Source: Alphaproteobacteria bacterium (GTDB lineage Bacteria > Pseudomonadota > Alphaproteobacteria > Geminicoccales > Geminicoccaceae). Taken from it: DNA of 64,000 nucleotides. Of this stretch, positions 28,908-64,000 are shown piece by piece. Under the pieces are notes generated by a model, which ran no database searches, was not told the DNA's origin, and worked only from the letters and a program-made list of their open reading frames with translations. The stretch covers positions 1-64,000 of the forward strand of contig JALSGP010000040.1 in assembly GCA_026982705.1 (NCBI GenBank), given 5' to 3'. The translations under genes were made by a program, and so were the position numbers. Within the stretch, counting starts at the first letter, position 1, and each line of letters starts with the position of its first letter.

Positions 28908-28938
28908 CCGGCGGGCCGGCCGCCGGCCGGCCCGCCGG
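28908..28938. terminator. Strong hairpin between convergent amt and fdsA
   Basis: Perfect 13-bp stem CCGGCGGGCCGGC / GCCGGCCCGCCGG with a 5-nt loop, placed between two convergent genes. There is no T tract on either side. It may serve both directions. Confidence 0.6.
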
Positions 28939-57445: not shown

Positions 57446-59674
57446 TCAGACGTAGACGGCGGTGACACTCCCGTCGCCCACGAGCTGACCGAAGTCTAGC
57501 CAGCCCTTCCAGGACAGCCGTGCAAGATCGATGTCACTCGCACCGTCGCCGTCGAGATCGACGCCGATGTCGAGATGCGATCCACGGCGGGTGGCGACAA
57601 GCCAGTTGACCGCCGCACGGCCGTCGTCGAGGGAGCCATCCAGTTCGACGCGCACGGTGTCGACGGCCGGATCGAAGTCGCGGATCTCGTCGAGAATGGT
57701 GCCCCCGACGACGAAGGTATCGGCCCCGGCCCCGCCCCACATGCGGTCGGCGCCGGCGCCGCCGTCGAGGAGGTCGTCGCCACTTCCACCGTAAAGGAGG
57801 TCGTCACCCTCGTCGCCGGCGAGGAAATCGTCGCCGTCGTGACCGCCCAGCACGTCGGCGCCGGCACCACCGTGAAGTTCGTCGTCACCGGTCTTGCCCC
57901 AGAGCCGGTCGTGCCCGAAGCCGCCCCACAGCCGGTCGTCGCCGTCCTCGCCCCCGAGGACGTCGTCACCATCGCCGCCGTAGAGCCGGTCGTTGCCGGT
58001 TCCCGCCCAGAGGCGATCGTTGCCGGCATCGCCCCAGAGGTCGTCGTCGCCCTCGTGACCGATGAGCACGTCGTTGCCGTCGCCGCCGTAGAGCACATCG
58101 TCGTCGGCACCGCCCCAAAGACGATCCGCCCCGGCGTCACCCCAGAGCACGTCGTTCCCGTCGTGACCGCCGATCATGTCGTCGCCATCGCCACCATGGA
58201 TCTCGTCGTCGCCCGCCTTGCCCCACAGACGGTCGTTGCCGCCGTCGCCCCGCAGCAGATCGTTTCCGGTGCCGCCACCCAGGAGGTCGTCACCATCACC
58301 GCCGTGGAGCTCGTCGTCGCCGGCATCGCCCCAGAGCCGGTCGCGGCCGGTACCGCCCCAGAGACGGTCGTTGCCGTCGTGGCCGGAAAGGACGTCGTCG
58401 CCGTCACCGCCGTACAGGAGGTCGTTGCCGGCATTCGCCCACAAGCGATCGTTGCCGGCGTCGCCCGACATGACGTCGTCGCCGGGACCGCCACCCAGGA
58501 GGTCGTCACCATCACCGCCGTGGATCTCGTCGTCGCCCGCCTTGCCCCATAGACGGTCATCACCGCCGTCACCGGCGAGAAGGTCGTTGCCGTCATTGCC
58601 GACCAGCATGTCGTTGCCGGGGCCGCCGTGCAACTGGTCGTTGCCGGGACCGCCCCAGATGCAGTCGTCGCCACCATCGCCCCAGAGCACGTCGGTGCCG
58701 TCGTGACCGCCCATCATATCGTCACCGTCGCCGCCGTAGAGGACATCGTTGCCGGCGTTTCCCCATATGCGGTCGTTGCCGGCGTCGCCCCACATGACGT
58801 CATCGCCGTCACCACCGCCCATGAGATCGTCGCCGTCGCCGCCATGCAGCTCGTCGTTGCCACCGTCACCCCAGATCTGGTCGCGCCCGGCATCACCCCA
58901 GACCATGTCGCGGCCGTCGTGGCCGACCACGAGATCATCACCGCTTCCGCCGTGGAGCTCGTCGTCACCGACACCTCCCCACAGTCGATCATCACCAGCG
59001 TCGCCCCAGAGCACGTCATTGCCATCGTGACCGCCCAGCATGTCATTGCCGTCACCGCCGTGGATCTCGTCGTCGCCACCCTTGCCCCAGAGGCGATCGC
59101 TGCCAGCACCACCCACCATCCGGTCCATCACCTCGGATCCGACCAGGAGATCGTCGCCGGCCGTGCCCTCGACCCAACTGCGCCCGTACCAGAACCAGTT
59201 GAGCCACGCGGTGACGTCGGCGACCCGCGCGTTGAAATTGCCGTCCTCGTTCAGGAAACGTCCATGATGGATCTCAAAGCCGAGATGATAGATCCCGTCC
59301 GCCACGGTGTCGACGAAGTTGCGACCATTGAACAGCGTCCCGGTCGCTCCGTCGTTCTGGACGAAATGGAATCCGGTCTCGATCCCGCGCTCGTCGTCAC
59401 CGTGAAATGCCATCCACTGCCCGAGACGTGCCGGATCATTGCGGATCCAGGCATTGAGCGTCAGGATCTCGGAGATTTCGATGCGATCGTCAGCCGTGGC
59501 GCCGATGGCCATAAGCCCCTGAACGATCAGCCGGTTGAGCTCGTCCGCGGCGGTGGCTCCGGCGATGATCTCGCTCCGCGGAATCCTGGCGTTCAGACCG
59601 GGATCGGTGAGGATGCGGGTGACGATCGCATCGAGGCCGGTTCCCGTAGACGGAATCCCGTTCGCCATCTCCAT
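57446..59674 (-). CDS. RTX (hemolysin-type) calcium-binding repeat protein
   Basis: A 742-residue acidic protein. Residues 1-165 form a domain seen at the start of other proteobacterial RTX proteins ([35 protein letters not shown]). Residues 193-624 are exactly twelve 36-residue units made of four RTX nonapeptides, followed by a short RTX end and the C-terminal [25 protein letters not shown] segment. Calcium folding after type I secretion is expected, but no T1SS genes are in the window and no enzyme domain is visible. The ATG at 59674 follows GGAGGAGC; ATG at 59668 is an alternative. It breaks the otherwise housekeeping context. Confidence 0.92.
57803..59098 (-). repeat. Twelve tandem 108-bp units encoding RTX repeats
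   Basis: Covers residues 193-624 of the RTX protein. Each unit is four nonapeptides, 36 residues. Every one of the twelve units has Trp at position 4 and GG at positions 14-15; position 13 is His in eight and Tyr in four. The pattern begins D-[RQC]-[LI]-W. Units are not identical, so they are old duplications kept in register, and strand slippage between them is possible. Confidence 0.9.
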
Positions 59675-60883: not shown

Positions 60884-61140
60884 GTCCGGATCCCGATGGC
60901 CCGCTCACCGCGATGACCTCCGGTCACGGCCGGATGCCGGCGAGATTGCCGGCACTGTCCGGACCGCGCCGACGACGCCGGGGCTTCCTCGCCCACGCGG
61001 CGATGCCTCGTGCGCCCCCGTCCGCGACGCGGAGACGAGGCAGCCGCCTTCCCCGCCGTCCGTCCCCGGTCCACCGCACCGCCCCATTGACCCCGCGGAG
61101 GGCTCCGCCCACCCTCCGGTGGGAAGGCGTGGGGGGAAGG

Positions 61141-61998
61141 GTGCGCAACGTCCTCGTCCACCTGGAGCCGGGACCCGGACTCGAATCGGTGCTCGCCTGC
61201 GCCCTCGCCGTGGCGCGCCGTTTCGGCAGCCACCTGGAGGGTCTGCACCTGCGGGCGGGCCGGCCCGACATCGTCGCCGCCGGCGCCGACGGCTTCGTCG
61301 CCGCCGCTCCCGAACTGGTGAGCGCCTTCGAGCGGGAGGCGGCGGCCCGCGCGGAGGCCGCCCGCACCGCCTTCACCGCCTTCTGTCGGCGCCACGGCAT
61401 TCCCCTCGACGAACCGCGACCGCCGGGAGAGATCTGGGCGCGCTTCCGGGTCGAACCCGCCTCCGTCGCGGGGGCCCTGGCGGCCCGGGCACGGGTGTTC
61501 GATCTGGTGGTGGTGGCGCGACCGCGGACCGACGCCCCCGGCGCCGCTCTCGCCGTCCTGGAGGCGGCGCTCTTCGAGAGCGGCCGTCCGCTGCTGGTGG
61601 CCCCGCCCGCACCGCCCACCGGCCCGCTCGGCGAGACGGTGGTGATCGCCTGGAACGGCAGCACCGAGACGGCACGCGCCGTCGCCTTCGCCATGCCCCT
61701 GCTGGCGCGGGCGCGACGGGTGGTGGTGCTGGCCGTCCCCGAGGGCATGGTCCCGGGCCCCGACGGCGAGGCCCTGGCCGAAGCCCTCCACCGTCACGGG
61801 CTCGTGGTGGAACACCGGCCGCGGGCGGCGGAGGGGCGGCCGGTGGGCGCGGCGATCCTGGCCGAGACCCACGCCCTCGGCGGCGATCTGCTGATCAAGG
61901 GCGCCTACACCCACAGCCGCCTGCGGCAGATGATCTTCGGCGGTGCCACCAGCCATCTGCTGCAGCACGCCGACCTGCCCATGCTCATGGCCAACTGA
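61141..61998 (+). CDS. Universal stress protein, tandem UspA domains
   Basis: A 285-residue protein with two UspA-like halves. The first starts RNVLVHLEPG, the second begins near residue 162 (ETVVIAWNGSTETARAV) and has a G-x2-G-x9-GS/T-type end (GAYTHSRLRQMIFGGATSHLL). GTG at 61141 lies directly after a GGGGGGAAGG stretch; the upstream extension is Arg/Pro-rich and not conserved. It probably binds nucleotide and acts in stress survival. The 257 bp between the tRNA and this gene hold nothing else that I recognise. Confidence 0.85.
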   Translation: MRNVLVHLEPGPGLESVLACALAVARRFGSHLEGLHLRAGRPDIVAAGADGFVAAAPELVSAFEREAAARAEAARTAFTAFCRRHGIPLDEPRPPGEIWARFRVEPASVAGALAARARVFDLVVVARPRTDAPGAALAVLEAALFESGRPLLVAPPAPPTGPLGETVVIAWNGSTETARAVAFAMPLLARARRVVVLAVPEGMVPGPDGEALAEALHRHGLVVEHRPRAAEGRPVGAAILAETHALGGDLLIKGAYTHSRLRQMIFGGATSHLLQHADLPMLMAN

Positions 61999-62017
61999 GA
62001 GGTGAGGGAAGATCGTC

Positions 62018-62476
62018 GTGGACCTCGAGGCCGTCGCCGGTGCCCTCCATCTCCTCGCCGCCGTCCTGTGGGTGGGCGGCATGGCCTTCGCCCACACGGT
62101 GCTGCGCCCGGCCGCCCTGCCGCTGGATCCGCCGGTCCGCCTCGGTCTCTGGCGGCGGGTGATGGGGCGCTTCCTGCCGCTGGCCGGTCTCTCCGTCGCG
62201 GTCCTGCTGGCGAGCGGCCATCTGCTGGTGGCGCTCCGCTTCGGCGGCTTCGCCACGGCGCCCCTCTACGTCCACGCCATGACCGGCATCGGCTGGGTGA
62301 TGGCGCTGGTCTACGCGGTGCTGGTGACGGGCCCGGCCCGCCGGTTCTTCGCGGCGGTGGACGGCGGCGCCGGGGAGACGGCGGCCGCCGCCCTCGCCCG
62401 CATGCGCCGGCTGGTGGCGACCAATCTGGTCCTCGGCCTCCTGCTGGTGGCCCTCGCCGGGGCCCGGTTCGGTTGA
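62018..62476 (+). CDS. CopD-like integral membrane protein
   Basis: A 152-residue protein with four membrane helices. GALHLLAAVLWVGGMAFAHTVLRP at the N-terminus and ALYVHAMTGIGWVMALVYAVLVTGP-type sequence in the middle resemble the CopD/DUF2269 group, in which His residues may bind copper or heme. The GTG at 62018 has GAGGTGAGGG upstream. It follows the stress protein by 19 nt and may be cotranscribed. Exact function unknown. Confidence 0.7.
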   Translation: MDLEAVAGALHLLAAVLWVGGMAFAHTVLRPAALPLDPPVRLGLWRRVMGRFLPLAGLSVAVLLASGHLLVALRFGGFATAPLYVHAMTGIGWVMALVYAVLVTGPARRFFAAVDGGAGETAAAALARMRRLVATNLVLGLLLVALAGARFG

Positions 62477-62630
62477 GCCGAATTCCGGCGCCATCGATCC
62501 GGCGGTGCCATCTCCAGGAGCCGCCGACTGATCGGACCAAGGACTTCGTTCCGCCGCGACGCCCGGCTCGTCCCTCCGAGATTCCGACGTCCTCCCCTTG
62601 TCCGCACCACGTGTCCAGGCGCCGACGCCG

Positions 62631-62684
62631 TTGACGCGAGGGTTTTAGGAATATAGTCTCTCTCCCGACGCCATCGGGAGAGAG
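62631..62684 (+). promoter_or_regulatory. Promoter and perfect inverted repeat at the S8 protease start
   Basis: TTGACG (62631-62636) and TATAGT (62652-62657) are 15 nt apart, a short-spaced sigma-70-like pair. Right after, CTCTCTCCCGA and TCGGGAGAGAG form a perfect 11-bp repeat with a 5-nt centre (62658-62684). The right arm contains the ribosome site GGGAGAG, and the ATG follows 2 nt later. It may be a repressor operator or, if the transcript begins early enough, an RNA hairpin hiding the ribosome site. Confidence 0.6.
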
Positions 62685-62686
62685 CC

Positions 62687-63643
62687 ATGCCGGATGCCAC
62701 GCGCCACGACGATCCGCCGGTCGCCCTGCCCGCCTTCCACGTCCATCGGGTGGTCGCCCGGCCGCGGAACCGGCACCTCCGCGCCCTCGAGGAGCGGCTG
62801 GGCTGGGCCGGCAAGCGGCTGCGCCTGCCGCTGGTGTGGCGGCTCACCGAGGGCGAGGGGGTGAAGGTGGCGGTGCTGGATACCGGAATCGACCGCGATC
62901 ATCCGGATCTGGCGGAGGCCGTCGAGGAGGTTCGCGACTTCACCGGCGAGGGCGTCGAGGACGGCAACGGTCACGGCACCCACGTGGCCGGCATCGTCGC
63001 CGCCCGCCGCAACGGCCGCGGCTTCGCCGGCGTGGCGCCCCGCTGCCGGCTGCTGGTGGGCAAGGTGCTGCGCGATGCCGGCGGCGGCACCCACGCCTGG
63101 ATCGCCGCCGGCATCGACTGGGCGGTGGAGCGCGGTGCCGACATCATTTCCATGTCCCTGGGCAGCGCCCACGACAGCCCCGAGCTCTTCGGCGCCGTCC
63201 ACCGGGCGCTGGCCGCCGGTCGCATCCTCATCTGCGCCGCCGGCAACGACGGGGCCCTCTTCGCCAACGGCATCGGCTATCCCGGCCGCTACGGCAGCGT
63301 CATCACCGTCGCCGCCCACGACCGCAACGGCAATCCCGCGGGCTTCTCCTCCCGCGGCGGCGAGATCGACGTGATGGCCCCGGGCGAGCGCATCTGGTCC
63401 ACCTGGAAGGACGGCGGCTATGCCGAGCTCTCCGGGACCTCCATGGCCACCCCCTTCGTCGCCGGCCTCGCCGCCCTCGTCCTCGCCAAACACCGCAAGC
63501 CCGGCTATCATCGCACGCCCGTACGCAACTGCGAGGAGATGCGGGCCCATCTGCTGCGCCTCGCCGCCCATCCCGGCCACCACGACGAGGCGCGCGGCTA
63601 TGGCCCGCTGCTACCGTTCCGCATGATCGGCGAGCCGGCCTGA
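62687..63643 (+). CDS. Subtilisin-like serine protease (S8), no export signal
   Basis: A 318-residue S8 peptidase. The catalytic triad is Asp65 (VLDTGID), His96 (GHGTHVAG) and Ser252 (GTSMATPFVAG), with oxyanion Asn187 (AAGNDG). No signal peptide or long propeptide is present, so it resembles intracellular serine proteases, although the short N-terminus (about 55 residues) may act as an inhibitory part. The ATG is at a perfect inverted repeat. Its last 33 nt overlap the cupredoxin gene on the other strand. Confidence 0.92.
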   Translation: MPDATRHDDPPVALPAFHVHRVVARPRNRHLRALEERLGWAGKRLRLPLVWRLTEGEGVKVAVLDTGIDRDHPDLAEAVEEVRDFTGEGVEDGNGHGTHVAGIVAARRNGRGFAGVAPRCRLLVGKVLRDAGGGTHAWIAAGIDWAVERGADIISMSLGSAHDSPELFGAVHRALAAGRILICAAGNDGALFANGIGYPGRYGSVITVAAHDRNGNPAGFSSRGGEIDVMAPGERIWSTWKDGGYAELSGTSMATPFVAGLAALVLAKHRKPGYHRTPVRNCEEMRAHLLRLAAHPGHHDEARGYGPLLPFRMIGEPA

Positions 63644-64000
63644 GCGCAGGTCCGCCACCGGCACCTCCGGCACACAGCCGCCGTCCCGGGCGAGACAGTC
63701 GAGGGTGCGGAAGAGACGCGCGAACACGACCCGCGCCGCCGGCGGATGGCGGATCGCCCGCGCCCGGGCGAGCTGCGCCGGATCCGGCTCGCCCACCACC
63801 AGCAGCCCCACCATGCCCAGACCGTAATGGGCCGAACACTTGAAGCCGTAGACGCCGGGGACGGTGGGTCGCAGCACCAGCGGCCGGCCCATGCCACCGG
63901 CGAAGGGCTCGACCCCCTCCGGCAGCATCCCGGGGATCGCGCGCACGCCGTGGATGTGGCTGTCGGCCACGAAGCGGACGGTGGTCCCCGGCGTCACCCA
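63611..64000 (-). CDS. Pseudoazurin-like cupredoxin with a C-terminal extension (partial)
   Basis: The end of a blue copper protein; the start lies beyond the window. Copper ligands can be read as His in HGVRAIPGMLPEGVEPF and Cys, His, Met in CSAHYGLGM, the pseudoazurin pattern. About 50 residues follow the copper domain (RARAIRHPPAARVVFARLF..), more than in typical pseudoazurin, without a known motif. It should be a periplasmic electron carrier. The stop overlaps the protease gene by 33 nt, tail to tail. Confidence 0.82.
   Translation of the reverse strand, partial: WVTPGTTVRFVADSHIHGVRAIPGMLPEGVEPFAGGMGRPLVLRPTVPGVYGFKCSAHYGLGMVGLLVVGEPDPAQLARARAIRHPPAARVVFARLFRTLDCLARDGGCVPEVPVADLRSGRLADHAER

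Follow-up and report, generated by a model that had tools for sequence, protein, structure and literature searches.

What does a palindrome do when it lies between a promoter-like sequence and the start codon of a chromosomal protease gene, and does it act as DNA or as RNA? The question is raised by positions 62658–62684 of a 64-kb stretch of DNA (64,000 nucleotides, here called the window), in which the putative −10 box of a subtilase gene is followed by two complementary arms, the second of which carries the ribosome site (SD). The features needed for the argument are the following.

62018–62476, + strand: CopD-family gene, upstream of the subtilase on the same strand, 210 nt before its ATG; a possible source of read-through
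62631–62636, + strand: putative −35, TTGACG, read from the sequence; TTGAC[AG] also occurs in HR39 and in the three g13 orthologs
62652–62657, + strand: putative −10, TATAGT, 15 nt past the −35
62658–62668, + strand: left arm, in which 62662–62665 (5–8 nt past the −10) pairs with the SD core
62663–62667, + strand: expected transcription-start zone, 6–10 nt past the −10, inferred from sigma-70 geometry; it overlaps the anti-SD
62669–62673, + strand: loop, CGCCA
62674–62684, + strand: right arm, bearing the SD
62677–62680, + strand: SD core GGAG, 6 nt from the ATG
62687–63643, + strand: S8 subtilase of 318 aa (PF00082), with no evident signal peptide by eye

The stretch 62658–62684 reads CTCTCTCCCGA-CGCCA-TCGGGAGAGAG, with CTCTCTCCCGA as the left arm and TCGGGAGAGAG as the right arm; the 11-bp arms are fully complementary (11/11, 100%) and are separated by a 5-nt loop. 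An earlier note on this DNA had described a perfect 27-bp inverted repeat, of which the perfect 11-bp arm pair was borne out, whereas the 27 bp are made up of 11+5+11 and not of 27 paired bases. Its placement of the arm pair directly after a TATAGT −10 and over the ribosome site was confirmed, as the left arm begins at the nucleotide following TATAGT and the right arm, which contains GGAG, stops 2 nt short of the ATG at 62687. The gene is also an S8 protease as had been proposed (Peptidase_S8, PF00082, E 1.9e-58). Residues 45–308 match PDB 2wv7 and 2x8j (E 8e-50 to 9e-50), which we take to be Bacillus intracellular subtilisins; secreted subtilisins, however, have scores that equal or exceed these (E to 2e-58, residues 55–282). 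A simple promoter scan that required a spacer of 16–18 nt did not list the −10 at 62652–62657, whose spacing is 15 nt.

By its letters alone, the dyad is unremarkable and not beyond chance in DNA of 72% GC. Perfect arms of at least 11 bp with loops of 3–10 nt were found twice in the window, compared with about 1.25 per 64 kb in eight Markov sequences, and the palindrome therefore needs other support. The longest dyad in the window for loops of 3–10 nt lies elsewhere, at 28908–28938, with perfect 14-bp arms and a 3-nt loop. A recurrence of the palindrome near other genes, which the earlier note had thought worth seeking, was not found: allowing up to 3 mismatches, the 27-mer had no second match either within the window or across the draft genome (48 contigs, 2,655,386 bases). 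The place of the palindrome is less ordinary. The SD of the window gene was the most paired among 137 leaders taken from ~404 kb of its genome, and shuffled folds as good as the native one made up 0/300 at 40 nt, 1.3% at 50 nt and 10/200 at 66 nt, an outcome that varies with the stretch chosen.

The weight of the argument lies with the orthologous leaders. Close orthologs, defined by E≤1e-100 among 31 genomes of the family, were present in 8 genomes from three genera: the window's own, that of HR39 (G003, its leader counted as L003), and six in two other genera (g6 and g13); L004 and L009 belong to one genus. Identity to the window protein is 67–82% in the seven other orthologs. With the cut-off set at E≤1e-60, the order (31 genomes) contributed just L010 (53%). 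The class was sampled with 385 genomes, family members among them, and with no more than 5 candidates scored per genome; hits came solely from the window's genome and from G008. Common to the leaders are a −35 of the TTG type (GTG in L008), a −10 that is TA-rich and an SD of the form GGAG(G) or GAGG, but the arm sequences differ. Most of the eight contain a hairpin of differing sequence at the same place, with the right arm on or beside the SD. A clear SD-covering pairing was predicted in the window leader, in L004 and L009 (AUCUUUGCCGU with ACGGCGAGGA(a)U) and in L007 (ACCUUGUGAA with UUCGCGAGGU, followed by GCC/GGC). In HR39 part of GGAGGA is predicted to be paired, in L006 CCU is predicted to pair with AGG across a bulge, in L005 the predicted SD pairing is weak, and in L008 most of the pairing is absent. 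The L008 subtilase (genome G008) has a frame that ends 15 codons after the conserved ATG, with the protein resuming in another frame, which reflects gene decay or else an error in the sequencing; its leader pairing is mostly gone. Further leaders tested were L033–L035, drawn from 51 loci, and L010 and L011 from remoter family members. The leaders of L011, L033, L034 and L035 showed no significant half-to-half pairing, and a start with an SD was looked for in L010 and was not found.

To compare leaders without alignment, every left half was paired with every right half, and the native set was ranked against permutations. With promoter-anchored cuts in the eight leaders, the native set was the best of 40,320 permutations, ahead of all the other 40,319; it was again the best, at 1/5040, without the window and at 1/720 without the window and L008, where the anchored cuts rest on −10 boxes and both were picked with the structures in view. 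Besides the full set, the test was applied to sets from which the window, L008 and L009 had been left out. When the cuts were fixed at 30–60 nt, permutations that equalled or beat the native set made up a fraction of 0.0006–0.026 (0.06–2.6%) for all eight leaders and 0.002–0.20 for the seven without the window (0.20 at 30 nt and 0.0018 at 50 nt). Random sets of seven control leaders reached 0.01 in 0.5–1.25% of 400 draws (0.75% at the 50-nt cut). The swap test is thus calibrated for unrelated leaders, and the orthologs within g6 and within g13 are mutually related.

Shuffling of the left arm separated the leaders individually. Per 1000 shuffles, the number at least as good as the native arm was 0 for the window and L007, 1 for L004 and L009, 9 for HR39, 66 for L006, 275 for L005 and 694 for L008. 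By this measure 5/8 orthologs (4/7 without the window) had p≤0.01 on anchored segments, compared with 3/259 controls on fixed 30-nt segments. Among ordinary leaders, tested with 300 shuffles each on fixed segments, 1/136 and 2/123 had p≤0.01 at 30 nt, and 0–1 and 2–3 did so over the three lengths tried. The controls came only from ~404 kb of the window's genome (G000) and 390 kb of G008, with none from g13 or HR39; they were called with a crude in-house gene finder, were required to have an SD and 60 nt clear of other predicted genes, and excluded the window gene. A paired SD is no rarity among leaders of these GC-rich genomes, as the SD was unpaired with a probability below 0.1 in 25/260 sampled leaders, the window gene counted. 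In 50-nt folds, the number of the 259 controls at least as SD-paired was 0 for the window, 3 for L007, 8 for L004, 15 for L008, 27 for HR39, 56 for L009 (7 at 60 nt), 71 for L006 and 97 for L005.

The position of the arms relative to the promoters suggests how such a hairpin might work. In the window leader, the bases that pair with the SD core are 5–8 nt past the chosen −10, and in L004, L006, L007 and L009 they are within ~6 nt past it; in HR39 the main arm starts 6 nt past the −10, in L005 the SD partner overlaps the −10, and L008 shows no clear partner. Transcription from sigma-70 promoters usually starts ~6–9 nt past the −10, so that the anti-SD would be wholly or partly cut from a gene's own message. 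The anti-SD sits at or just before the expected transcription start, and a message from the own promoter, beginning an estimated ~6–10 nt past the −10, would start inside or behind the anti-SD, given promoters called by eye. Such a message would retain only a short 5' stem, with much of its SD left accessible, whereas transcripts running in from the upstream gene would bear the whole left arm and have their SD closed. The protease would then be produced only when its own promoter fires, and transcription starting inside the left arm, which the earlier note had listed as part of a contrary result, is what this model would lead one to expect.

The predicted folds of upstream-started messages, whose 5' end was set 12 nt ahead of the last base of the −10, were compared with those of messages begun 6–10 nt past the −10. 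The predicted probability that the SD is unpaired was 0.000 for the upstream-started message of the window (also with 110 nt of upstream sequence) versus 0.27–0.53 for the own-start messages, 0.002 versus 0.34–0.89 in L004, 0.002 versus 0.31–0.40 in L007, and 0.002 (0.23 with 110 nt of upstream sequence) versus 0.62–0.77 in L009. In L006, it was 0.26 versus 0.11 for a start 6 nt past the −10 and 0.46–0.67 from 7 nt onward. The corresponding predictions were 0.10 versus 0.03–0.23 in HR39, 0.38 versus 0.55 in L005 and 0.11 versus 0.02–0.06 in L008. The predicted switch is therefore clear in four leaders (window, L004, L007 and L009), mixed in L006, weak in HR39 and absent in L005 and L008.

We also examined the genes from which read-through could come. 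The upstream same-strand gene has an OmpA-type tail in 7/7 relatives, assigned by Pfam for HR39 only and by likeness of the tail for the others. Its stop lies 53–81 nt before the subtilase ATG in 6/7 relatives; the distance in L006, a hand count based on the reading frame, is ~76 nt. In HR39 and L009, the stop codon of the upstream gene overlaps the putative −35, and read-through is therefore hard to avoid. In the window, a simple scan of 61000–64000 found no terminator-like sites. The gene upstream there is of the CopD family, and the HR39 OmpA-type protein matched the window's genome in its OmpA part only (best E 4.7e-14, 34% identity); the promoter and hairpin thus accompany the protease even where the OmpA-type neighbour is missing. 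Two other genes were seen on the minus strand of the window. A cupredoxin-like gene at 63611–64000 is convergent with the subtilase, with a similar sequence, by eye, beside the L007 subtilase, and a long protein with GGxGxD-type calcium-binding repeats is encoded at 57446–59674, for which several RTX-type NCBIfam models matched below their cut-offs.

Our best explanation, in which we place middling confidence, is that the palindrome encodes an RNA hairpin by which subtilase translation is silenced in read-through messages. That the structure acts at the RNA level is held more firmly than that it acts on read-through. The earlier note had offered a strong operator or an RNA switch; the RNA half is supported, as most orthologs keep a hairpin written in other letters and the window SD is paired, whereas the operator half is not. 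A dimeric repressor binding a DNA operator just past the −10 would suit a perfect dyad in the right position, and within 3 mismatches the 21-bp core occurred at 22 places in the genome, its own included, versus 4 for a reversed control, although that control lacks the CG steps of the core and the excess may be compositional. Besides its own site, the core had one place with one mismatch and 20 with three; the one-mismatch place, the only near-match whose context was inspected, falls within coding sequence that looks by eye like an aminotransferase gene. Operators keep their sequence, and most leaders here keep position and pairing, with no common half-site by eye, which disfavours an operator; the differing arm sequences, together with native halves that fit each other best, favour structure in the RNA over a DNA operator common to the orthologs. 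As the 27-mer is also single in the draft genome, the operator of a regulon was rejected, and we consider a repressor site highly improbable.

Among explanations at the RNA level, the whole hairpin could be present in the gene's own message, with translation held low or opened by heat or by a protein partner. The window SD is indeed predicted to be fully paired for starts at or before the left arm (including 1 nt past the −10), yet the required start would fall only 1–2 nt from the −10. No aptamer-sized domain was seen, and a search with Rfam covariance models gave no credible match (best 18.5 bits, on the minus strand, against a gathering score of 62). Gradual opening between 37 and 75 °C was predicted for L005 (SD unpaired 0.41 to 0.69), L006 (0.28 to 0.56) and HR39 (0.12 to 0.28), but the window stem is too stable, with the SD unpaired 0.00 at 25–75 °C and 0.05 at 95 °C, and an RNA thermometer in the window was rejected on this melting profile. 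We judge the whole-hairpin explanation unlikely. A 5'-end stem-loop that shields the message from decay, with incidental overlap of the SD, agrees with the prediction that messages begun 7 nt past the −10 still open with a stem in the window, HR39, L004, L009 and L007; the SD-covering pairs, however, fall outside that stem and yet occur in the window, L004, L009 and L007. This makes protection as the sole role rather improbable, and the residual 5' stem of an own-promoter message may also protect it. That hairpins simply arise by chance in GC-rich leaders is a shade harder to credit: the dyads expected per 64 kb, the 25/260 strongly paired leaders, the value of 0.20 at fixed 30-nt cuts without the window and the small sample of 8 orthologs in 3 genera speak for chance, while the anchored result of 1/5040 without the window and the value of 0.0018 at the 50-nt cut, where 0.75% of control sets of seven reached 0.01, speak against it.

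Silencing of read-through messages, if true, would impose a "protein only from own promoter" rule on a protease lying right behind an OmpA-type gene, and the leader would tell the ribosome which promoter had made the message. RNA coverage would then also mislead as a measure of expression for such genes. It is possible, though doubtful, that a chromosomal gene family is insulated in this way, with the start region kept complementary to the SD, only own transcripts translated, and the arrangement kept in the window's genome, which lacks the OmpA-type neighbour there. If other cellular genes followed the same rule, it would be a general insulator.

Related arrangements are known from several systems. 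In the transposase genes of IS10/Tn10 and IS200, read-through messages have their ribosome site masked by an inverted repeat; unlike these, the 27-mer of the window is single in its genome, and nothing suggests the end of a mobile element. RNA thermometers of the ROSE and fourU types carry the SD in the 3' arm of a hairpin, as the window leader does, but its stem is perfect and very stable, with no melting predicted up to 75 °C. Elsewhere in the window's genome, the minus strand at ~5466–5524 of contig C30 (L109) carries an inverted repeat that runs out into a series of Ts and is terminator-like by eye. A second pairing overlaps it and takes in the SD of the predicted gene that follows (TTG start); the two are mutually exclusive, in the manner of an attenuator.

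The closest parallels are found in phages. The T4 lysozyme gene e has a late promoter beside an SD-hiding hairpin, and longer read-through messages fold the SD away (PMC3014915, PMC2988022). In the window leader, longer read-through messages are likewise predicted to hide the SD; unlike gene e, the gene behind it is chromosomal and codes for a protease, and its putative promoter is of the sigma-70 type. For I-TevI, I-TevII, I-TevIII, segB and mobE of T4-like phages, PMC2988022 describes a promoter sited such that the gene's own message cannot form the inhibitory structure. Genes of the I-TevI type are homing endonucleases timed by phage promoters, whereas the window gene is a chromosomal protease. 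The kind of SD-hiding promoter hairpin is thus already known from T4 lysozyme and I-TevI, and a cellular case would probably be new; if true, the logic documented in T4-like phages would also guard a chromosomal protease from its neighbour's transcription.
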